Shown here piece after piece: positions 8,549 through 47,831 of a DNA stretch of 47,831 nucleotides (within the stretch, counting starts at the first letter, position 1; every line of letters starts with the position of its first letter). The DNA comes from an uncultured Pelagibacteraceae bacterium. Its GTDB lineage: Bacteria; Pseudomonadota; Alphaproteobacteria; Pelagibacterales; Pelagibacteraceae. The stretch covers positions 1 through 47,831 of the forward strand of contig CACLIZ010000006.1 of assembly GCA_902607115.1 (NCBI GenBank), in the 5' to 3' direction. Both the position numbers and the translations under genes were made by a program. Below the pieces are notes generated by a model. That model searched no databases. It was not told the DNA's origin and saw only the letters and a program-made list of their open reading frames with translations.

Positions 8549-9319
8549 ATGAAAAAACTTAAACTTTTTGCGCTAGCAACTGTTGCCCTATTGGGTTTTT
8601 CAGGTGCTGCAAACGCAGAAACTGTTCTCTTGGCTTCTGACGACTTTGTTGGAATTTCCTTTTGGGTAATTTCAATGGGTATGTTGGCTGCTACTGCATT
8701 CTTTTTCATGGAAAGAGGATCAGTTGCATCTGGATGGAGAACTTCAGTAACAGTTGCAGGACTTGTAACTGGTATTGCATTTATCCACTATATGTACATG
8801 AGAGGCGTATGGGTACAAACTGGAGAATCACCAACTGTATACAGATATATTGATTGGTTAATTACAGTACCTTTACAGATGATTGAATTCTATTTAATTC
8901 TTGCAGCTGTAAGAAAAGTACCAGGCGGAATTTTCTGGAGATTGTTAATTGGATCTTTAGTAATGCTAGTTGGTGGATACATGGGAGAAGCAGGTTACAT
9001 CAATGCTCTTCTTGGTTTCATAATTGGTATGGCTGGATGGTTATACATTCTTTATGAAGTATTCTCAGGTGAAGCTGGTAAAGCAGCGGCTAAAAGTGGT
9101 AACAAAGGTCTTGTAACTGCATTTAGTGCAATGAGAATGATCGTAACAATAGGTTGGGCTATTTACCCATTAGGTTATGTATTTGGTTACCTAACAGGTG
9201 GAGTAGACGCAAATTCACTTAACGTGATTTACAACCTTGCAGACTTTATTAACAAAATCGCATTCGGTTTAGTTATTTGGGCTGCAGCGATGCAAAATAC
9301 ATCAGCTAGATCTAGATAA
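8549..9319 (+). CDS. Proteorhodopsin, blue-absorbing type light-driven proton pump
   Basis: A 256-residue seven-helix microbial rhodopsin with a cleavable signal peptide (likely cut after ANA, residue 23). Key residues: Asp102 (Schiff-base proton acceptor, in RYIDW), Glu113 (donor), Lys236 (retinal Schiff base, in NLADFINKI) and His80 paired with the acceptor. Gln110, at the place of residue 105 of the reference green pigment, predicts a blue-absorbing pump typical of open-ocean SAR11. Retinal would need a carotenoid cleavage pathway not seen here. A strong ribosome site (AGAGGGAG, 8 bases from ATG) and a strong terminator directly downstream point to high, largely single-gene expression. Confidence 0.98.
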   Translation: MKKLKLFALATVALLGFSGAANAETVLLASDDFVGISFWVISMGMLAATAFFFMERGSVASGWRTSVTVAGLVTGIAFIHYMYMRGVWVQTGESPTVYRYIDWLITVPLQMIEFYLILAAVRKVPGGIFWRLLIGSLVMLVGGYMGEAGYINALLGFIIGMAGWLYILYEVFSGEAGKAAAKSGNKGLVTAFSAMRMIVTIGWAIYPLGYVFGYLTGGVDANSLNVIYNLADFINKIAFGLVIWAAAMQNTSARSR

Positions 9320-18977: not shown

Positions 18978-19000
18978 TTAGGTTGTATTTTGAGTCTGTA

Positions 19001-19022
19001 AGTGAATCAAAAGTGAATCAAA
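19001..19022 (+). repeat. Tandem 11-base direct repeat upstream of umuD
   Basis: AGTGAATCAAA occurs twice head to tail, followed by a degenerate third copy beginning at 19023 (ACGTGAAC). It lies in the 170-base umuD-SOUL gap, 24 bases upstream of the umuD -35 hexamer. Repeats of this size often bind a regulator, but none is identified. Confidence 0.5.
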
Positions 19023-19096
19023 ACGTGAACATTAAAACTACATTTTGTGCTCTTGTGGATAACTTTAACCAAGGATAGTTTAAAATTCATATTAAA

Positions 19097-37833: not shown

Positions 37834-38702
37834 GCATATTATTTAAGATACCCGGTTATGTTTTAGTATTCTTAGGCGCAGTTACATTAAGTTTTGGTGG
37901 GTTAATTGTTAAATCATTTGAAGGTGCAACTTTATGGCAAATTTTGTTTTGGAGGTCTGTTTTTTTTTGTTTTGTTATAATTATTTTTTTATCAATTACC
38001 TATAAAAGACAATTTTTTAAGTCTTTGATTGACTCTGGCGTACCGGGCTTAATTGGTGGAATAATTTTAGGATGTGGATTTTTTGGATATGTATTTGCAA
38101 TGTATAATACTACTGTTGCAAATGCTAATTTTATAATTCAAACTCAAACTTTATTTTTAGCAATCTTTGGATATATTTTTCTAAAAGAAACTATTTCTAA
38201 AATTACACTAGCTTCAATAATTTTAGCTATATCAGGCATTATGCTAATGCTTGGCGACTCGCTAAGCTCAGGGCAAATTCTTGGTAACTTGATTGCATTT
38301 ATTATGCCAATTTCATTTGCAGTTCTTATTATAATTGTAAGAAAATATCCAAGTGTTGACATGGTTCCTTTACAATTGGTTGCCGGCATTGTGGCAATGA
38401 TTATTGGTTATCTATTTGCCGGCAGGGTAGATATTTCTTTACATGATATATTTTTAGGATTTTTGGCAGGATTTTTTCAAGTTGGTCTTGGATTTATTTT
38501 TATAACCATAGGTGCAAGAACTACGCCTTCTGCGGTTGTAGGAATTATCATGATGTCAGAAGCAATATTTGGACCTCTTTGGGCTTGGATTTTTATAAAT
38601 GAACAGCCACCATTTATTGTTCTTATTGGTGGTTCGATTGTTTTATTTGCAGTTTTGCTTCAATTTTTAAATAAATTTTTTTCAAAAAAAGGAGCAAATT
38701 AA
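37830..38702 (+). CDS. EamA/DMT-family permease
   Basis: A 290-residue, ten-helix drug/metabolite transporter with two EamA repeats (second repeat from about residue 150). The start is a GTG whose last two bases begin the pxpC stop (GTGA), so it is coupled to the oxoprolinase genes. EamA proteins mostly move amino acids and other metabolites, in or out. A link to glutamate or 5-oxoproline movement follows only from the operon. Confidence 0.85.
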   Translation: MSILFKIPGYVLVFLGAVTLSFGGLIVKSFEGATLWQILFWRSVFFCFVIIIFLSITYKRQFFKSLIDSGVPGLIGGIILGCGFFGYVFAMYNTTVANANFIIQTQTLFLAIFGYIFLKETISKITLASIILAISGIMLMLGDSLSSGQILGNLIAFIMPISFAVLIIIVRKYPSVDMVPLQLVAGIVAMIIGYLFAGRVDISLHDIFLGFLAGFFQVGLGFIFITIGARTTPSAVVGIIMMSEAIFGPLWAWIFINEQPPFIVLIGGSIVLFAVLLQFLNKFFSKKGAN

Positions 38703-38725
38703 AAAATTTGTGATATATTAAATCC

Positions 38726-38882
38726 GCGGAAGAGACTACTTAAATGTAGAGCCGAAGGAGCAACCACCCCGGAATCTCTCAGGCAAAAGGACCGCACATA
38801 TTAACTCTGGAAAAAGAACCACAGTTCTTGCCGAAGGAGCAAAACTCTCAGGCCAATAGACAGAGGGGGCAAGAGAGTTAAT
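38726..38882 (+). ncRNA. Tandem glycine riboswitch upstream of gcvT
   Basis: Two aptamers in tandem: the first from 38726 (P1 GCGG/CCGC closing at 38795) with GCCGAAGGAGCAA and CTCTCAGGCAAAAGGAC, the second from 38805 with GCCGAAGGAGCAA and CTCTCAGGC..., P1 CTCTG (38805-38809) with CAGAG (38861-38865). These are the invariant core segments of glycine riboswitches. Bases 38801-38808 can instead pair perfectly with 38874-38881, one base before the ATG, giving an off state. Glycine binding would favour P1 and expose the start, so the switch is predicted to turn gcvTHP on. Confidence 0.95.
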
Positions 38883-39986
38883 ATGATTAAAAAAACAACT
38901 TTATATAACCTTCACCAAAAAAATGGAGCTAAGCTTGTAGAATTTGCAGGTTATGAAATGCCGATTCAATACAAAGACGGGATTATCCAAGAACATAAAT
39001 TTACTAGATCAAATTGTGGAATATTTGATGTTTCTCATATGGGTCAATTATTTATATATGGTGATGAAAATTTAACTAATGACTTAGAAAATATTTTTCC
39101 ACTAGATTTAAAAAAATTGAATATTAACCAAAGCAAATATTCTTTTTTAATGAATGACAACGCAGGAATACATGATGATTTAATTATTACAAAAGTTACT
39201 GGGGGATATTTAATTATTCTAAATGCAGCATGTAAAGAAAATGATTTTAGAATAATAAAAGAAAAGTTGAATGATAAATATGATTTACAATTAAGTGACA
39301 AGCATTCATTAATTGCTATTCAAGGTCCAGAGGCAAAAAATATTTTAGAGAAAAATATCAATGGAGTGGATAAATTAAAATTTATGAATGGTGGAAACTT
39401 TAAATTTCAAAATTCAGACGCATACGTTACAAGATCAGGATATACAGGAGAAGATGGTTTTGAAGTTTCAATTGGAAATAATTATGCCGAAAGTTTTGTA
39501 GAAGAAATGCTTAAAATTGGAGCAAAATTAGCAGGACTTGGAGCAAGAGATACATTAAGACTTGAAGCAGGCCTATGTCTTTATGGCAATGATATTGGTA
39601 TGAATACTACACCAATAGAAGCAAATCTAAAATGGGCAATTTCCAAAAATAGAATAGATACTGAATACCCTGGATCAAAAATTATTAAAAACCAAATTAA
39701 ATCTGGTGTAGATAAAATTAGAGTAGGAATTAAACCTGAAAACAGAGTTATAGCTAGGGGAAATACAAAAATATTTAATAACGAAAAGAAAGAGATAGGA
39801 AAGATTACAAGCGGTACATTTGGTCCAAGCGTAGAACACTCAATTGCAATGGGATATGTTGAAAACAAATATGCAATTTTAAATACAAAGTTATTTTTAG
39901 AAGTGAGAGGAAAAAAAATTCCCGCAAATGTTTGTAATTTACCATTTTATAAAAAAAACTATGTTAAAGGAGAAATAAATGTCTGA
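38883..39986 (+). CDS. gcvT: Glycine cleavage system T protein (aminomethyltransferase)
   Basis: A 367-residue aminomethyltransferase that moves the methylene group from lipoyl-H protein to tetrahydrofolate and releases ammonia. Conserved blocks: [41 protein letters not shown]-like [13 protein letters not shown] and [18 protein letters not shown]. Its start is controlled by the glycine riboswitch. The stop overlaps gcvH by 8 bases. Confidence 0.97.
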
Positions 39987-40359
39987 TGTAAAATATTCTA
40001 AAGAGCATGAATGGTTAAAGTTAGATGGAGATATAGCAACTATCGGCATTACTAAACATGCAACAGAAATGTTGGGAGATATTGTATTTGCTGAATTGCC
40101 CGAAAAAGGCTCAAGTGTAGAAAAAGATGGCACAGCAGGTGTTGTTGAATCTACAAAAGCAGCGAGTGATGTTTATACTCCAATAAGTGGAGAGGTTGTT
40201 GATGCCAATCAATCGATAGTTGATGATCCTTCGAAAATTAATGCGGATCCAGAAGGAGATGCATGGTTTTTTAAATTAAAAATAAAAGATAAGAATGAAT
40301 TAGATACTTTAATGAATAAAGAAGAATATGATAAATTTGCCAAAGAAAGTGCTCAGTAA
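39979..40359 (+). CDS. gcvH: Glycine cleavage system H protein
   Basis: A 126-residue lipoyl carrier: [21 protein letters not shown] at the start and the lipoylation Lys60 in [17 protein letters not shown]. It shuttles the aminomethyl arm between P, T and L proteins. GGAGAAATAA before the ATG is the ribosome site. One-base overlap with gcvP (TAATG). The lpd (L protein) gene is not in the window, as is usual. Confidence 0.97.
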
Positions 40360-43223
40360 TGTTAGAAAATAATAGAAGTTTTTTTAGAAGACACATTGGA
40401 AATTCGGCTCAAGAACAAAAAAAAATGCTCAATGAATTGGGGTATAAAGATATTAAAGAGTTAATTTCAAAAACTGTACCAGAAAATATTTATTTTAAAG
40501 ATAATTTGACCATCGGTGAACCAAATTCAGAGTATGAGGCTTTACGAAAACTTAAAAATATTTCTAAACAAAATAAAATTTACTCAAACTTTTTAGGAAT
40601 GGGTTATTATGGAACTTATATACCCAATGTAATTTTAAGAAATATTTTAGAAAATCCAGGATGGTATACGTCCTATACACCTTATCAGCCTGAGGTAGCT
40701 CAGGGTAGATTAGAAATGTTGCTTAATTTTCAACAAATGATCACTGATTTTACTGGTATGGATATTGCAAATGCTTCACTGTTAGATGAAGGAACTGCAG
40801 CAGCAGAGGCAATGGGAATGAGTCACAGATTAAATAAAAAAGACAGTAAAATAGTATTTTTATCTGATAACTGCCACCCACAAACTATTGATGTAATTAA
40901 AACAAGAGCAGAGCCTCTTGGTTTAAAAATAATAATTGGAAATAATGAAAAAGATTTAGAAAATATAGCTGGAGATATAGTGTGCGGTATAATTCAGTAT
41001 CCAGGAAGTTTAGGAGAAATTAAAGATCCAAGCGAAATGATTAGCAAGATCCATAAAAAAAATGGAAAAGCAATTTTAATATGTGATCTTTTATCATTAG
41101 CCTTAATTAAAACACCAGCGGAATTAGGTGCAGATATTGCTGTCGGAAGTTCACAAAGGTTTGGCATCCCTATGGGTTATGGTGGCCCTCATGCAGCATT
41201 TTTTGCAACAAAAGATGAATTTAAAAGATCTATGCCAGGAAGAATAGTTGGAGTTTCTGTTGATAGACATGGCAACAAAGCTTACAGATTAGCATTACAA
41301 ACAAGAGAGCAACACATTAGAAGAGATAAAGCTACAAGCAATATTTGTACTGCTCAAGCTTTATTAGCAATAGTTTCAGCTGCCTTTGCAATTTACAATG
41401 GTCCAGAAGGAATAAAAAACATAGCAGAAAGAGTTTCACAATTAACAAATAATTTTGCAAATAAGCTAAAACAGTCAGGATATGAATTATACTCACAAAG
41501 CTTTTTTGATACTGTAACAATTAAAACAGGCGAAAAAACAGAAAAGATTTTTCAAAATGCTTTAAGTCAAAAAGTAAATATCAGAAAAGTGAACTCTGAA
41601 ATGTTAGCAGTTTCATTTGATCAGAAAAAAAATGTATATAGAGCTAATCAATTATTAAAAATATTTAATTCAGCAGAATCTATTAAAGATAATCCAACAG
41701 AAAGTTTACCAAACTTGCCAAAAAAACTTCTAAGATCCTCAAGTTATCTAGATCATCCTGTGTTTAACAATTATCATTCAGAAACGGAAATGCTTAGATA
41801 TCTTAAAAAATTGGAAGATAAAGATATAGCATTAAATAGATCTATGATTGCCCTAGGATCTTGTACAATGAAACTAAATGCTGTAGCTGAAATGATACCA
41901 GTCTCATGGAGAGAGTTTTCAGAACCTCATCCTTTTACTCCCGTTGAACAAATGGATGGATATAGAAATTTGTTTACGGATTTAAAAAATTGGCTGAGAT
42001 CTATCACAGGTTTTTCAGGAGTATCGTTACAACCAAATGCCGGTGCACAAGGAGAATATGCGGGTTTGATGGTAATTAAAAAATTTCATTTTGAGAAAGG
42101 CAATCAGAACAGAGATGTATGTTTAATACCAAGCTCTGCTCATGGAACAAACCCAGCTAGTGCTCAAATGGTAGGAATGAAAGTAGTAGTAGTTAATTGT
42201 GATAAAGAAGGCAACGTAGACATAAATGATTTAAAAAATAAAGCAGAAAAATATTCTGAAAATTTAGCTGCTCTAATGGTAACTTATCCTTCTACACATG
42301 GAGTTTTTGAAGAAAAAATTACAGAAATATGTGATTTAATTCACAAGCATGGAGGTCAAGTTTACATGGATGGAGCAAATTTAAATGCTTTAGTTGGTAT
42401 CGCAAGACCTGGAAATTTTGGTCCAGACGTATGTCATATAAATTTACATAAAACTTTTTGTATTCCACATGGTGGCGGCGGGCCTGGAATGGGACCTATA
42501 GCGTGTAAAAGACATTTAGAACCTTTTCTTCCTAATCATCCTGTAATTAAAGATTGTGGTCCCGCTTCTGGAATTGGATCTATTTCAGCAGCACCTTGGG
42601 GTAGCGCAAGTATTTTAGCTATTTCATGGATGTATATAAAAATGATGGGATCCGAAGGATTGAGAATTGCGACTGAAAATGCAATACTTAATGCAAATTA
42701 TGTAGCTTATAAACTGAAAGACTTTTTTCCAATTTTATACAAAGGAAAAAACGGAAACGTTGCCCATGAGTGTATAATTGATATTAGACCAATAAAAAAT
42801 GACACAGGCATAACTGAAGAAGATATAGCCAAACGTCTTATTGATTTTGGTTTTCATGCACCAACAATGTCTTGGCCAGTAGCGGGAACAATGATGATTG
42901 AACCAACAGAAAGTGAAAGTCTAAGAGAATTAGATAGATTTTGTAATGCACTAATAACTATCAAGAGTGAAATAGATAAAATTAAGTCGGGTGAATATGA
43001 CAAAACTGATAATCCAATTAAAAATGCGCCTCATACAGATGTTGAATTAGTATCTAATGAATGGAAACATAAATATTCAAGAGAAGATGCTGCTTACCCC
43101 GCTGTGTATTTAAAAGAAAATAAATTTTGGCCTCCAGTTGCAAGGGTTGACAATGTTTATGGAGATAAAAATTTATTTTGTTCTTGTCCTAGCATGGATG
43201 AGTTCAAAGAAGATGCTGCATAA
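40359..43223 (+). CDS. gcvP: Glycine dehydrogenase (decarboxylating), P protein, single chain
   Basis: A 954-residue full-length P protein, so not split into two subunits. The PLP lysine is Lys698 in NLHKTFCIPHGGGGPGMGP; the N-terminal half has the matching inactive-half features (GMGYYGTYIPNVILRN, DEGTAAAEAM). It decarboxylates glycine and loads the H protein. Together with T and H it yields methylene-THF, NADH and ammonia from glycine, matching the glycine/serine and C1 economy of SAR11. Confidence 0.98.
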   Translation: MLENNRSFFRRHIGNSAQEQKKMLNELGYKDIKELISKTVPENIYFKDNLTIGEPNSEYEALRKLKNISKQNKIYSNFLGMGYYGTYIPNVILRNILENPGWYTSYTPYQPEVAQGRLEMLLNFQQMITDFTGMDIANASLLDEGTAAAEAMGMSHRLNKKDSKIVFLSDNCHPQTIDVIKTRAEPLGLKIIIGNNEKDLENIAGDIVCGIIQYPGSLGEIKDPSEMISKIHKKNGKAILICDLLSLALIKTPAELGADIAVGSSQRFGIPMGYGGPHAAFFATKDEFKRSMPGRIVGVSVDRHGNKAYRLALQTREQHIRRDKATSNICTAQALLAIVSAAFAIYNGPEGIKNIAERVSQLTNNFANKLKQSGYELYSQSFFDTVTIKTGEKTEKIFQNALSQKVNIRKVNSEMLAVSFDQKKNVYRANQLLKIFNSAESIKDNPTESLPNLPKKLLRSSSYLDHPVFNNYHSETEMLRYLKKLEDKDIALNRSMIALGSCTMKLNAVAEMIPVSWREFSEPHPFTPVEQMDGYRNLFTDLKNWLRSITGFSGVSLQPNAGAQGEYAGLMVIKKFHFEKGNQNRDVCLIPSSAHGTNPASAQMVGMKVVVVNCDKEGNVDINDLKNKAEKYSENLAALMVTYPSTHGVFEEKITEICDLIHKHGGQVYMDGANLNALVGIARPGNFGPDVCHINLHKTFCIPHGGGGPGMGPIACKRHLEPFLPNHPVIKDCGPASGIGSISAAPWGSASILAISWMYIKMMGSEGLRIATENAILNANYVAYKLKDFFPILYKGKNGNVAHECIIDIRPIKNDTGITEEDIAKRLIDFGFHAPTMSWPVAGTMMIEPTESESLRELDRFCNALITIKSEIDKIKSGEYDKTDNPIKNAPHTDVELVSNEWKHKYSREDAAYPAVYLKENKFWPPVARVDNVYGDKNLFCSCPSMDEFKEDAA

Positions 43224-43229
43224 TTCTTA

Positions 43230-44468
43230 ATGAAAATAGCAGTAGTTGGATCAGGAATATCTGGATTAAGTGCAGCTTACCACTTATCAAAAAAACATAA
43301 AGTAGATCTTTTCGAAAAAGACGATCATTTTGGAGGTCATTCTTATACATTAGACCTTAATGTAAATAATAAAAAAATATCAGCAGACATTGGTTTCATA
43401 GTTTTTAATTATAAAACTTATCCTAATCTTATTAATTTTTTCAAAGACAATTCAATCGAGATAGAAAAAAGCAATATGTCTTTTTCAGTATCAGTAAAAG
43501 ATACAAATTTTGAATATTGTGGCAATGGTATTTCAGGTATGTTTTGTAATAAATCAAACATATTTAACTTAAAATTTTTAAAAATGTTTTTTGATGTAAT
43601 AAAATTTTATAAAAAAAACGAAAACCTAAAGTTAGCTGACAATAAATTAACTCTTGGAGAGTATTTAAATAAAGAAAAATTATCTAAAGAGTTTATTGAT
43701 TATCACATTATCCCAATGGTCGCAGCTATTTGGTCTATGCCACCCTATGAAGCTAGTCAAATGCCATTAAGTTTTTTTTTAAAATTTTTCCAAAATCATG
43801 GTTTATTTAAATTAAAAAATAGACCTCAATGGTACACAGTTTCAAACAGAAGCAGAACATATGTAAATAAAATTCTTAATAAAATAAGTGGAGAGCATTA
43901 TAAAAATTATAAAATTAATTTAATTAAAAGACACAAGGAAAATATTGAAATATTTTATGGAGAAAAAAATGAATTCTTTTCATATGATAAAGTAGTAATA
44001 GCAACACATGCAGATGAGGCATTATCAATACTAGAAAATCCAACAGAAGACGAAAAAAATTTGCTTTCAAATTTTAAATATAAAAGCAATTTAGCTGTAA
44101 TCCATACAGATAAAAACCAAATGCCTACAAATAAAAAAGCGTGGAGTGCATGGAATGCGAAATTAAATAAAAACGTTAGAGAAAATTCATCTGTAACTTA
44201 TTGGTTAAACTTGTTGCAAAATTTAAAAATTGATGAAGATATTTTTTTATCTCTCAATCCTTTTGATAGAATTGATGAACAAAAAATACTCAACAAAGTA
44301 AGTTTCATGCACCCATATTATGATAAATTAGCACTTGAAAATCAGACTGAATTGAAAAAACTTCAAAATGTAAATAATACCTTATTTTGTGGGAGTTATT
44401 TTGGATCTGGATTCCATGAAGATGGAATAACTTCTTCAATAGATATGTTAAAATCAATTAATGATTAA
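43230..44468 (+). CDS. FAD-dependent amine-oxidase-like oxidoreductase
   Basis: A 412-residue NAD(P)/FAD-binding protein: GSGISG at 7-12 with AAYHLS and FEKDDHFGGHSYT, the standard opening of the flavin amine-oxidase/phytoene-desaturase superfamily. SADIGFIVFNYKTYPNL and the late CGSYFGSGFHEDGITSS fit the subgroup found next to DUF1365 and CFA-type genes. It likely oxidises or desaturates a lipid-linked substrate. It overlaps the DUF1365 gene by 8 bases. Confidence 0.88.
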   Translation: MKIAVVGSGISGLSAAYHLSKKHKVDLFEKDDHFGGHSYTLDLNVNNKKISADIGFIVFNYKTYPNLINFFKDNSIEIEKSNMSFSVSVKDTNFEYCGNGISGMFCNKSNIFNLKFLKMFFDVIKFYKKNENLKLADNKLTLGEYLNKEKLSKEFIDYHIIPMVAAIWSMPPYEASQMPLSFFLKFFQNHGLFKLKNRPQWYTVSNRSRTYVNKILNKISGEHYKNYKINLIKRHKENIEIFYGEKNEFFSYDKVVIATHADEALSILENPTEDEKNLLSNFKYKSNLAVIHTDKNQMPTNKKAWSAWNAKLNKNVRENSSVTYWLNLLQNLKIDEDIFLSLNPFDRIDEQKILNKVSFMHPYYDKLALENQTELKKLQNVNNTLFCGSYFGSGFHEDGITSSIDMLKSIND

Positions 44469-45237
44469 GTATTCTAAGATTTACTCAGGTCAAGTAATAC
44501 ACACAAGATTTAAACCTAAAAAACATCATTTTAAATATAAAGTATTCAGTTTGTTAATTGATTTAGATGAAATCAGTGAAATAAATAATAATTTAAATTT
44601 TTTTTCATATAATAAATTTAATTTAATTAGTTTTTTTGACATAGATCATGGAAATAGAGACGGCAAAAATGTTAAAGAATGGGTAAAAGAAAACCTAATT
44701 AAAAAGAATATTAAATTTCAAAATATTAGAGTAGAAATTCTATGTTATCCAAGAATATTTGGTTACGTATTCAATCCACTTTCAATTTTATATATTTATA
44801 ATGAGAATAATGAATTAATCTCAATTTTTTATGAAGTTAAAAATACATTTGGAGAGCAACATACTTATATTTTTGAAACTAAAGATCAAACCTTAATAAA
44901 AAATAAATGTAATAAAAAGTTTCATGTATCACCTTTTATTGATATGGAATGTGAATACAATTTTAGTGTGACAAAGCCCGGAGACTCTATATCTGTTATA
45001 ATTAATCAATATGATAAAGAAGGTAAGCTTTTATTCGCCTCACAAGATGGAAAAAGCCAAGATTTTACTGCTAAAAATCTAATACTTAATTATTTAAAAC
45101 ATCCACTAATGACTTTTAAAGTAATAGTTGCAATACATTATGAAGCATTCAAACTTTGGCTTAAAAAAGTAAAATTGGTAAAAAAGAAAATTAAAATTTT
45201 AAATAAAGTAACATTTGAGACCAATGAGCATAAATAA
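44461..45237 (+). CDS. DUF1365 family protein
   Basis: A 258-residue DUF1365 protein. The family hallmark is CYPRIFGYVFNPLSILYIY near residues 97-115, preceded by HTRFKPKKHHFKYKVFSLLIDL. No catalytic role is established to my knowledge, but the family regularly neighbours CFA-type methyltransferases, and its Rhodobacter relative lies in the singlet-oxygen regulon. It overlaps the CFA gene by 14 bases. Confidence 0.88.
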   Translation: MIKYSKIYSGQVIHTRFKPKKHHFKYKVFSLLIDLDEISEINNNLNFFSYNKFNLISFFDIDHGNRDGKNVKEWVKENLIKKNIKFQNIRVEILCYPRIFGYVFNPLSILYIYNENNELISIFYEVKNTFGEQHTYIFETKDQTLIKNKCNKKFHVSPFIDMECEYNFSVTKPGDSISVIINQYDKEGKLLFASQDGKSQDFTAKNLILNYLKHPLMTFKVIVAIHYEAFKLWLKKVKLVKKKIKILNKVTFETNEHK

Positions 45238-46402
45238 TATATCAGACAAAATAGTATTCAGCATGTTAAAGCATATTAAACATGGTGTGCTAGAACTTAC
45301 AAATCATGATAGCAAAAAATATGTTTTTGGAAAAGACTCAAGCGGATTAGATGTTAGTTTAAAAATAAATAAGCCAGACTTCACTTATAAAATAATTAAA
45401 AGTGGAAGCGTAGGATTAGCAGAAGCTTATATGAGAGGTGATTTTGAAACAAATAATCTTTCAAGTTTAATAGAATTAACAGCAAAAAATATAAATATAA
45501 TTTATAAATTTTCAGGAATATTTGATTTATCATTAATTAATATAATTAAAAATTTCCTCGTAAAGAATACAAAAAATCAAAGTAAAGAGAATATTGCTAA
45601 ACATTATGATCTTGGGAATAATTTTTTCTCTTTGTGGTTAGATAAATCTTTAACTTATTCAAGCGCAATATTTGATAGTGATAAAAAAGATTTAGAATCT
45701 GCCCAGTATAATAAATATTTAAAATTAATTAATTTAATCAAACCAAAGTCAGGCGATAAAATTTTAGAAATAGGATGTGGCTGGGGAGGATTTGCTGAAT
45801 ATGTGGGAAAAAATTTAGATGTCAAGTTAGACTGCATAACAATTTCAAAAAAACAATATGAATTTGCAAAGGAGAGAATATATAAAAATCATTTAAATCA
45901 TAAAATAAATATTGAATTAAAAGATTACAGAGATGTTAATCATAAATATAATTCAATAGCATCTATCGAAATGATTGAAGCGGTAGGGCAAAATTATTTA
46001 GATGGTTATTTTAAAACGATTAAAAATAATTTAAATGTTAATGGTACTGCCGCCATCCAAGCAATTGTAATCGATGATAAGTTATATAAAAGATATAAAA
46101 CAAAAGAAGATTTCATTCAAAAATATATATTTCCAGGGGGCTTTTTGCCTTCTAAGAATAGTTTAGAAAAACTTTCAATAAAAAATGGTTTGAAACTTGA
46201 TTTGATGAATTCATATGGTGAACATTACTCTGATACATTAAGAATTTGGCGAGATGAATTTTTAAAAAAGTGGGATTTAATATCAAGGCAAGGATTTGAT
46301 TTAACTTTTAAAAAAATGTGGGATTTTTATTTGTCGTATTGTGAAGCTGGCTTTAAATCAAAAAATATTGATTTGATACAATTTTCACTACAAAATAAAT
46401 AA
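45224..46402 (+). CDS. Cyclopropane-fatty-acyl-phospholipid synthase-type SAM methyltransferase
   Basis: A 392-residue CFA-synthase-family enzyme. The SAM site is ILEIGCGWGGFAEY; KHYDLGNNFFSLWLDKSLTYSSA is the family block before it, and SIEMIEAVGQNYLDGYF follows. The N-terminal domain (YAFGKDSSG... GSVGLAEAYMRGDFE-like) binds lipid. It may cyclopropanate or methylate unsaturated acyl chains. A TTG at 45215 would add three residues; the ATG at 45224 is preferred. Confidence 0.9.
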   Translation: MSINNISDKIVFSMLKHIKHGVLELTNHDSKKYVFGKDSSGLDVSLKINKPDFTYKIIKSGSVGLAEAYMRGDFETNNLSSLIELTAKNINIIYKFSGIFDLSLINIIKNFLVKNTKNQSKENIAKHYDLGNNFFSLWLDKSLTYSSAIFDSDKKDLESAQYNKYLKLINLIKPKSGDKILEIGCGWGGFAEYVGKNLDVKLDCITISKKQYEFAKERIYKNHLNHKINIELKDYRDVNHKYNSIASIEMIEAVGQNYLDGYFKTIKNNLNVNGTAAIQAIVIDDKLYKRYKTKEDFIQKYIFPGGFLPSKNSLEKLSIKNGLKLDLMNSYGEHYSDTLRIWRDEFLKKWDLISRQGFDLTFKKMWDFYLSYCEAGFKSKNIDLIQFSLQNK

Positions 46403-46408
46403 ATATAT

Positions 46409-46957
46409 ATGAAAGTTTTTAAATTTCTTAATTTAATTTTATTGATAATTTTTGCTCAATTTATTACAAGCTGTTCATCAAATAGCTCTATGAAACCTGA
46501 AGATTTTAAAGATAAGAAACCAAGATTGATAATCGAGGAGTATTTAGCAGGCGAAGTAAAAGCTTGGGGAATTTTGCAAAATAGATCAGGCAAAGTCACA
46601 AGGCAATTTTCTGCAACCCTAAATGGCAAATGGAATGGAACGCAATTGATATTAGATGAAACATTTAATTGGGATGATGGAGAAATTCAAAATAGACAGT
46701 GGAAAATTAATAAAATTGATGAACATAATTATGAAGGTACGGCGGGCGATGTAGTTGGAAAAGCAAAAGGATTTTCATATGGACCAGCATTCAAATTTGA
46801 ATATGTTTTATTAGTTCCAGTGAAAGGCAAAGAAATGAAAATCACCTTTGATGATTGGATTTTCATGCAAGATGAAAAAGTTGCAATTAACAGAGCAAAG
46901 ATGACAAAATTTGGAATTAGAGTTGCAGATCTAACTGTAGTCTTTGTAAAAAATTAG
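46409..46957 (+). CDS. DUF3833 family lipoprotein
   Basis: A 182-residue protein with a lipoprotein signal (hydrophobic stretch then ITSC at 19-22), followed by a beta-rich domain with GVLQ-like WGILQNRSGKVTRQF and ETFNWDDGEIQNRQW, as in DUF3833. Members sit in the same CFA/DUF1365 clusters of Rhodobacter, Vibrio and Shewanella. The gene is 6 bases behind the CFA gene and is likely in its operon. It may carry or sense a modified lipid, which is a guess. Confidence 0.85.
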   Translation: MKVFKFLNLILLIIFAQFITSCSSNSSMKPEDFKDKKPRLIIEEYLAGEVKAWGILQNRSGKVTRQFSATLNGKWNGTQLILDETFNWDDGEIQNRQWKINKIDEHNYEGTAGDVVGKAKGFSYGPAFKFEYVLLVPVKGKEMKITFDDWIFMQDEKVAINRAKMTKFGIRVADLTVVFVKN

Positions 46958-47715
46958 TTCTTTTTTTGAAGCTTTGTTCCTTTTTTTAACAAATAAAAAT
47001 ATACTTTACTTGGTAACAGTTTAAAAAATTTAAGTGTTAAAGTAAGTTCTTTAGGAAAATGTATTTCAAAGATATTTTTCTTAGTTAATCCATCATAGAT
47101 TTTATCTGCTGCAAATTCTGGAGTTTTTAAAAACGGCATTTTAAAATCATTTTTATCTGTCATTGGGGTTTTAATAAAACCTGGTGATACTAAACATACT
47201 CTTACATTGTATCTTTCGAAATCAAAGTACAAACTTTCAGCCAGACTAATTAATGCTGATTTTGATGGTCCATATCCAGTTGTATTTGGCAAACCTCTAT
47301 AGCCAGCAATTGAAGATACTATGGTTATTATTCCATCCTTCTTATTTTTGAAATATTCTTCAACAGCTTTTATACAATTTAAAGTTCCAAAAAAATTTAC
47401 TTTAAAAACATTTTCAATTTGTTCAACATCTATATCCTTTTCTTTTTTTGGACTCCAAGTTCCTGTAGAAAAAAAACAAATATCTATATTTCCAAATTGA
47501 TCTTTAATTTTATTGAATACTTCTTTACATTTAATTTTATCAGTAACATCTAATGGAAAAGACTTTATATTTTCGTTAGATTCGGAAATCTCATTTAATA
47601 AATTTTCTCTTCTAGCTGAGATTGCGACATTCCAACCTTCTTTAGCAAATTTTAAAGCTAACGATTTACCAATACCGCTACTTGCACCAGTTATCCACAC
47701 TACTTTTTTATTCAT
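46954..47715 (-). CDS. Short-chain dehydrogenase/reductase
   Basis: A 253-residue classical SDR: TGASSGIGKS near 9-18 for NAD(P) binding, IVSSIAGY with the catalytic Ser, and YGPSKSAL with the Tyr-x3-Lys pair. LVSPGFIKTPMTDK is the usual C-terminal block. It converges on the DUF3833 gene with a 4-base overlap. An SDR belongs to related clusters in other proteobacteria, so it probably acts on the same lipid intermediate, though general SDR roles cannot be excluded. Confidence 0.92.
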   Translation of the reverse strand: MNKKVVWITGASSGIGKSLALKFAKEGWNVAISARRENLLNEISESNENIKSFPLDVTDKIKCKEVFNKIKDQFGNIDICFFSTGTWSPKKEKDIDVEQIENVFKVNFFGTLNCIKAVEEYFKNKKDGIITIVSSIAGYRGLPNTTGYGPSKSALISLAESLYFDFERYNVRVCLVSPGFIKTPMTDKNDFKMPFLKTPEFAADKIYDGLTKKNIFEIHFPKELTLTLKFFKLLPSKVYFYLLKKGTKLQKKN

Positions 47716-47768
47716 AATTTAATATTGTATTTAATTATTAATTTAATTTATGCTAGTAATTAATTCTT

Positions 47769-47831
47769 ATGGATGATGTTGTAGTTATAGGTGGCGGTAT
47801 TATAGGCGTTTCAGCAGCTTATTTTCTATCA
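47769..47831 (+). CDS. FAD-dependent oxidoreductase, N-terminal fragment
   Basis: The last 63 bases open a frame MDDVVVIGGGIIGVSAAYFLS, cut by the window edge. GGGIIG with VSAAYFLS is the FAD-binding start typical of D-amino-acid dehydrogenase, glycine oxidase or sarcosine-dehydrogenase-like enzymes (DAO family). The exact enzyme cannot be known from 21 residues. Confidence 0.72.
   Translation, partial: MDDVVVIGGGIIGVSAAYFLS

Follow-up and report, generated by a model that had tools for sequence, protein, structure and literature searches.

The four genes at positions 43230-46957 of contig CACLIZ010000006.1, from an uncultured bacterium of the SAR11 lineage (Pelagibacteraceae), are probably a furan fatty acid cassette. 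Judged from their sequences, the first three are homologues of UfaD, UfaO, and UfaM, and the furan fatty acid pathway is the best reading because homology, conserved residues, clade, and gene order all point to it. The pathway itself is known; its regulatory setting is new. The operon does not start at 43230, as an earlier note on this DNA (the original prediction) had it, but is part of a gene run that reaches upstream to a glycine riboswitch. The window, meaning the whole stretch analysed, is the complete contig (C6; 47,831 nucleotides), one of 42 that make up a 69% complete genome totalling 892,538 bases. Coordinates below are window positions, with gene families assigned by Pfam and open reading frames taken from the window; the methyltransferase start was assigned to the ATG at 45224.

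38713-38867, plus strand: glycine riboswitch leader (tandem), upstream of gcvT; RF00504 and RF03166 matches
38883-39986, plus strand: gcvT, glycine cleavage T protein (PF01571, E 7.8e-79)
39979-40359, plus strand: gcvH, glycine cleavage H protein (PF01597, E 5.3e-43); overlaps gcvT by 8 nucleotides
40359-43223, plus strand: gcvP, glycine dehydrogenase (PF02347, E 5.5e-191); ends 6 nucleotides short of ufaD
43230-44468, plus strand: ufaD-like FAD enzyme, putative fatty-acyl desaturase, 412 amino acids (NAD_binding_8/Amino_oxidase)
44461-45237, plus strand: ufaO-like DUF1365 protein, putative furan-forming monooxygenase, 258 amino acids (PF07103, E 5e-76)
45224-46402, plus strand: ufaM-like putative fatty-acyl methyltransferase of the CMAS family, 392 amino acids (PF02353, E 1.8e-78; motif and clade), METHYLTRANSFERASE
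46409-46957, plus strand: DUF3833 lipoprotein-like protein, predicted beta-barrel, in the RSP1088 position, 182 amino acids (PF12915, E 4e-60)
46954-47715, minus strand: converging short-chain dehydrogenase (SDR), in the RSP1087 position, 253 amino acids (PF00106, E 4.9e-46)
8549-9319: proteorhodopsin (PF01036, E 1.8e-51)

The original prediction of a tight operon of FAD enzyme, DUF1365, CMAS, and DUF3833 genes with an SDR converging on it was borne out by the open reading frames and Pfam families. The first and second genes overlap by 8 nucleotides and the second and third by 14, a gap of 6 nucleotides separates the third and fourth, and the ends of the SDR and DUF3833 genes overlap by 4. SAR11 cassettes fall into two types by score and neighbourhood: type I has the order gcvP, ufaD, ufaO, ufaM, DUF3833, and inverted SDR (15 of 15 loci), and type II has the order photolyase, ufaD, ufaO, and ufaM (5 of 5 loci, L076-L080, with one photolyase confirmed by Pfam). 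The gene order is beyond chance, since it is identical in all 15 type-I loci and takes varied forms in other alphaproteobacteria. DUF1365 was found in 152 of 197 SAR11-family genomes (67 of the 77 good ones) and in 129 of 241 class genomes. A check for viral copies of the cassette gave 11 pattern matches and no true relatives.

In Rhodobacter sphaeroides, UfaM (RSP2144) methylates cis-vaccenate, UfaD (RSP1091) desaturates the product, and UfaO (RSP1090, a DUF1365 protein) introduces oxygen from O2, which makes the furan (PMC7380195). The three genes are proven neighbours in Rhodopseudomonas palustris (RPA2571-2570-2569; PMC7380195) and are consecutive in Halomonas as ufaD-ufaO-ufaM; in E. coli, the Halomonas ufaM yields the methylated intermediate (PMC12089945). 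Cereibacter johrii, taken from 80 of 142 loci selected by ChrR, served as the stand-in for R. sphaeroides, its ChrR being 96% identical to the PDB sequence. R. sphaeroides itself was absent from those 80 loci, and a search for it in the G326 family (394 genomes, E <= 1e-80) gave a best ChrR identity of 71%, with no higher value in the one genome of that match's genus. The C. johrii locus has ECF and ChrR genes and then, divergently, UfaD, UfaO, MFS, DUF3833, and SDR, and its UfaO (249 amino acids) and DUF3833 protein (186 amino acids) agree with the 750 bp published for RSP1090 and the 561 bp for RSP1088. The window UfaD is 33.1% identical over 414 amino acids to the protein in the RSP1091 position (E 6e-94), UfaO is 30.4% identical over 247 amino acids (E 6e-41), and DUF3833 is 25.4% identical to its counterpart. 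After short rows were dropped, alignments of 134 UfaO and 135 UfaD rows, window included, showed the window UfaO with residues at least 95% conserved at 24 positions and the window UfaD retaining the conserved positions of its family. The original prediction had linked these families to furan fatty acids in Rhodobacter, and they are indeed the same families, with homologous proteins (PMC7380195).

Conserved alongside the three enzyme genes are DUF3833 and the SDR, to which no role is assigned. Single deletions of RSP1087, RSP1088, and RSP1089 gave no detectable change in the fatty-acid profile of R. sphaeroides (PMC7380195). RSP1089 is most likely an MFS transporter rather than a methyltransferase (a locus similar to that of C. 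johrii, L102, has a PF13347 match at the MFS gene), so its null deletion has no bearing on the SAR11 methyltransferase. The AlphaFold2 model of UfaO (pLDDT 84) had no Foldseek match at E <= 0.001, and a sequence search up to E 5 gave no solved structural relative. Its best VIA Z score was 6.9, with OlmO and nitrobindin-type barrels, which is below the level that exceeds a common arrangement; this similarity is too low for a cofactor to be claimed. The DUF3833 model (pLDDT 92) is similar to BFA1 (E 3e-5), CpeS, and other barrels, a likeness on which no functional claim is based.

The methyltransferase belongs to the CMAS family (PF02353). Labelled "CFA-type" (cyclopropane fatty acid) in the original prediction, it is better called UfaM-like than a cyclopropane synthase on the evidence of its residues, its clade, and a separate Cfa-like enzyme elsewhere. 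At the positions of E. coli Cfa C139, E239, H240, H266, and Y317, which we take to be active-site residues with a role in bicarbonate binding, it has S-E-A-Q-Y; both histidines are thus replaced, by A and Q. The only CMAS of C. johrii at E <= 1e-25 (L246) also has S-E-A-Q-Y, and the operon enzyme is 39.0% identical to this UfaM-type enzyme and 31.2% identical to E. coli Cfa. The wider comparison used matches at E <= 1e-20, with rows under 330 amino acids and exact duplicates removed, leaving 100 rows in which the C1 gene of the window's genome stands twice (WINc1, L001). By positions 240 and 266, 72 rows are A/Q, 27 are H/H (one gene counted twice), and one (L103) is neither; the A/Q class also takes in three other named Rhodobacterales (G827, G828, G829) and G326. 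In a quick tree built without the five motif columns, the A/Q class and L103 form a single 73-row clade (support 99), with the H/H (CFA) class on the opposite side as one group (support 99). The motif indicates "not canonical CFA" more firmly than it indicates "UfaM". The L103 gene (L103:4561-5706), from the family of G326, is a diverged CMAS gene between UfaO and DUF3833 genes, with A-E-R-Q-Y and 27% identity to the window enzyme.

A second, Cfa-like CMAS gene is present in SAR11 genomes of type I, with C-E-H-H-Y at the five positions as in E. coli Cfa. It lies at L005:7764-8954 (in the window's own genome, contig C1:83823-84617), beside a gene that is DapA-like by eye. Two CMAS genes (E <= 1e-25) were found in 13 of 13 type-I genomes (G000, G002, G003, G015, G017, G018, G026, G035, G036, G043, G063, G078, G116), and one in each of five type-II genomes checked, from which the second gene is absent. 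An early survey gave the name cyclopropane synthase to SAR11_1144 of strain HTCC1062 (PMC2217521), which is probably this second, C1-type gene.

The regulatory setting of the cassette differs from that of Rhodobacter. From gcvT through gcvH and gcvP into the cassette the run is unbroken, each junction being an overlap or a gap of at most 6 nucleotides, and it stands behind a riboswitch match to RF00504 (38717-38804; 63.8 bits, above the gathering score of 32). The tandem model RF03166 scored 69.5 bits over 38713-38867, below its gathering score of 110. Across SAR11, where riboswitches were scored with the stricter filters of Infernal, spacing was taken for 149 listed ufaO rows, split by score into 128 of type I and 21 low-scoring. 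Among the matches listed, 98 of the 128 type-I rows have a riboswitch on the same strand 5758-5789 bp upstream of the ufaO match, and none of the 21 low-scoring (type-II) rows has one in range (one of the 21, G148, is fragmentary and comes from a type-I genus). Twelve of the remaining 30 type-I rows have a riboswitch listed elsewhere and 18 have none among the matches listed; in G035, one of the twelve, the tandem element is in place (RF03166, 54.6 bits, below gathering). Of 45 loci, which represent 40 distinct genomes, 42 (from 37 genomes) have a gap of -1 to 14 nucleotides between gcvP and ufaD. No plus-strand terminator-like site was found in 38600-47831. The promoter scan gave fewer matches (36) than its shuffles (mean 56.2) and is not used as evidence. 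Co-transcription of the cassette with gcv is likely, given this arrangement.

The same link can be followed into a cultured strain. One genome (G026) is that of HTCC1062, because its riboswitch matches at 649787-649876 (plus strand) and 498528-498615 (minus strand) fall in the intergenic regions tabulated in PMC2704228, where SAR11_0666 is named gcvT. Its ufaO match is at 655564-656277 and the full cassette is present; counting from gcvT, SAR11_0668 to 0672 would be gcvP and the cassette, and no open-licence paper with these tags was found. Transcripts reaching gcvT have been observed in Red Sea SAR11 (PMC2704228, PMC5069720). The method enriches 5' ends and by its authors' account misses genes inside operons, so those transcripts neither show nor exclude read-through from gcvP to ufaD.

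The original prediction called the genes a photo-oxidative-stress cassette. As a statement of regulation this is not supported, since in most type-I rows examined a glycine riboswitch and gcvTHP stand ahead of the genes. It was right that no sigma factor or ChrR is adjacent: the window cassette has gcvP and the SDR as neighbours, and neither ECF nor ChrR genes were seen in 20 SAR11 loci. A chrR-like regulator elsewhere, which it had suggested seeking, was not found either; ChrR above the cut-off was present in none of 18 SAR11 genomes (three with weak short matches) versus 15 of 22 other alphaproteobacteria, and had no match in the 69% complete genome of the window. Outside SAR11, 126 genomes of the class match DUF1365; in 40 alphaproteobacterial stretches hand-picked from these, each about 12 kb long, 23 have ChrR, 17 have photolyase, and none has gcvP. 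No gcvP was found in the 80 named loci chosen by ChrR. A locus titled Exiguobacterium profundum (L198, CP059262.1) has a Rhodobacterales-type ECF-ChrR-UfaD-UfaO arrangement, and its title is probably a mislabel.

In the proposed mechanism, a UfaM-type enzyme would use S-adenosylmethionine (SAM) to methylate cis-vaccenoyl chains of membrane phospholipids, giving 11-methyl-12-trans-18:1, a UfaD-type flavoenzyme would desaturate the methylated chain to a conjugated diene, and a UfaO-type DUF1365 protein would insert one atom of O2 and close the furan ring, all by analogy with Rhodobacter. The furan chain would then scavenge singlet oxygen within the membrane. In most type-I SAR11 examined, the cassette, lacking sigma-E/ChrR, would be the tail of the gcvTHP run, with its mRNA made when the glycine riboswitch permits expression of gcvT; furan lipid synthesis would depend on the glycine and one-carbon status of the cell, not on singlet oxygen. 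The broadest version of the proposal is that furan fatty acids serve the SAR11 lineage as a membrane antioxidant, either standing or nutrition-gated, with the singlet-oxygen alarm lost and glycine/one-carbon control gained, SAM-needing chains built when glycine is plentiful, and SAR11 abundance making it a main source of these lipids for the surface-ocean food web; it is a tentative one and as a whole rather doubtful.

Several observations weigh against the proposal, its regulatory part, or a light link. Identities to the C. johrii proteins are only 25-39%. The equivalent of Cfa C139 is still C in 6 of 16 type-I SAR11 rows, and Phaeobacter italicus has two genes in the A/Q clade, which may include other non-CFA methylases. 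Among the open-licence papers listed, none reports SAR11 acyl chains that are methylated or carry a furan. A simple link with light is not supported by co-occurrence in f137, a sister family within the order: ufaO is above the cut-off in 9 of 48 f137 genomes (one more is below it), rarer than in SAR11, and proteorhodopsin, found in 36 of the 48, accompanies ufaO in 8 of 9 genomes and is present in 28 of the 39 without it. SAR11 genomes are densely packed, and adjacency of gcv and cassette alone is therefore weak evidence. Finally, five genomes (G105, G152, G166, G083, G190; 94-98% complete) have no gcvP match genome-wide and keep the cassette, from which glycine control would seem dispensable. 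The first three of these are the gap exceptions noted above. None of the five has a riboswitch match under the stricter filters, and no Rfam match was found in four of their five loci. All five loci (L260, L261, L262, L263, L264) have EamA directly before ufaD and the cassette at the same site, L262 being a short contig whose end falls within the methyltransferase gene. A UfaD and UfaO tree with 51 rows, in which some genomes appear twice, requires four changes of gcv state, three of them forced by starred branches; repeated loss of gcv with the cassette retained is the simplest reading, its direction taken from the presence of gcv in all other genera on the tree. Two further genomes without gcvP (G127, G160) are also without DUF1365.

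The same genomes bear on whether the gcvTHP link is anything beyond dense packing, with the cassette having its own promoter inside gcvP or with gcv-driven expression being physiologically meaningless. This concerns regulation only, is compatible with the pathway, and is a substantial possibility at somewhat below even chances. Retention of the cassette in the five genomes favours it, as does the type-II cassette behind photolyase, with no riboswitch within range of the 21 low-scoring rows among the matches listed. Against it, the spacing is constant and the gap close to zero in several genera, and in f137 5 of 7 loci (L251, L253, L254, L255, L256) have the cassette 380-400 nucleotides behind genes of sarcosine oxidase alpha and gamma type, another one-carbon source. 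These calls were made by Pfam on one locus and by translation likeness on four, and one of the other two loci ends at ufaD; with seven loci, the neighbourhood may be chance.

It is unlikely, though less so than the readings that follow, that the enzymes act on acyl chains and stop at, or diverge to, another product, such as a methyl-branched, conjugated methyl-diene, or other-length furan chain. The divergence of UfaO (about 30% identity) and UfaM (39%) from the C. johrii proteins would allow for this, and UfaM acting alone is reported to give methylated 18:1 (PMC7380195). However, the three genes occur together in all 20 SAR11 loci compared, and UfaD and UfaO retain their conserved residues; if the first product alone mattered, loss of ufaO would be expected. 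Very improbable is a reading of the methyltransferase as an ordinary cyclopropane fatty acid synthase in a cluster that makes or modifies cyclopropane chains. CMAS and cyclopropane synthase are its top Pfam and NCBIfam names, with all NCBIfam matches below their cut-offs, and Halomonas ufaM and cfa strains both showed cyclic chains, in an E. coli host (PMC12089945). Against this, the operon enzyme has A and Q at the histidine positions, 13 of 13 type-I genomes have a separate Cfa-like enzyme, and, while the motif classes are split by definition, the tree without the motif columns still separates them; on residues, clade, and the separate enzyme, a cyclopropane reading of the cluster was set aside. 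A non-lipid substrate, an amine or carotenoid, is the least probable of all, for although the Pfam label is Amino_oxidase and weak NCBIfam matches are phytoene-desaturase-like, UfaD is itself described as phytoene dehydrogenase-like despite being a proven acyl desaturase (PMC7380195), and neighbours and order agree with the proven pathway.

Compared with known systems, the furan fatty acid cassette of SAR11 shares with R. sphaeroides homologues of the three enzymes, the order ufaD then ufaO, and the DUF3833 and SDR companions (PMC7380195). In the Rhodobacter type, as represented by C. johrii, an MFS gene stands where SAR11 has ufaM, with ufaM elsewhere; the SDR is on the same strand as the operon rather than converging; and rpoE-chrR adjoin the operon, whereas the SAR11 cassette is behind gcvTHP, without ChrR above the cut-off. 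R. palustris and Halomonas have ufaD, ufaO, and ufaM as neighbours, as SAR11 does (PMC7380195, PMC12089945); compared by published layout only, SAR11 differs in having DUF3833 directly after ufaM and gcvTHP in front. Furan fatty acid genes have been described within the core singlet-oxygen regulon of sigma-E/ChrR (ECF11; PMC6852236), and these genes are what SAR11 has in common with it, ChrR not being above the cut-off in the 18 SAR11 genomes. The riboswitch and its position before gcvT are those reported for HTCC1062 SAR11_0666, and the published passages on that element do not mention lipid genes behind gcvP (PMC2704228, PMC5069720).

The window carries two other features: a match to the SAR11_0636 small RNA (18981-19070, plus strand; RF01827, 110.9 bits) and, by eye, the apparent start of a FAD-dependent oxidoreductase gene truncated at the contig end (47768-47831, plus strand). 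The genome is a proteorhodopsin genome as originally predicted, but the argument that a light-exposed cell keeps the set is weakened by the f137 counts. A light link through proteorhodopsin co-occurrence was rejected, there being no useful association in f137; in favour of a light reading is the photolyase adjoining all five type-II loci and present in 17 of the 40 other stretches.

The suggestion of a membrane lipid unstudied in SAR11 stands, as no report of furan chains made by SAR11 was found among the open-licence papers listed. For marine bacteria, 16:0 and 18:1 chains are mentioned, without double-bond position (PMC4796936, PMC8231724), and the 18:1 chains have the right length for the pathway. 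Annotating the operon methyltransferase as a cyclopropane synthase calls for caution, and the DUF1365 cassette of these streamlined cells gains a concrete hypothesis of function. To our knowledge, the marine origin of furan fatty acids is poorly known. If the proposal is true, these antioxidant lipids would gain a candidate marine source in a very common ocean bacterium, and a metabolite-sensing RNA would have replaced a stress sigma factor in the control of their pathway. With the full set present in the genome matching HTCC1062, both points could be tested directly in cultured SAR11.

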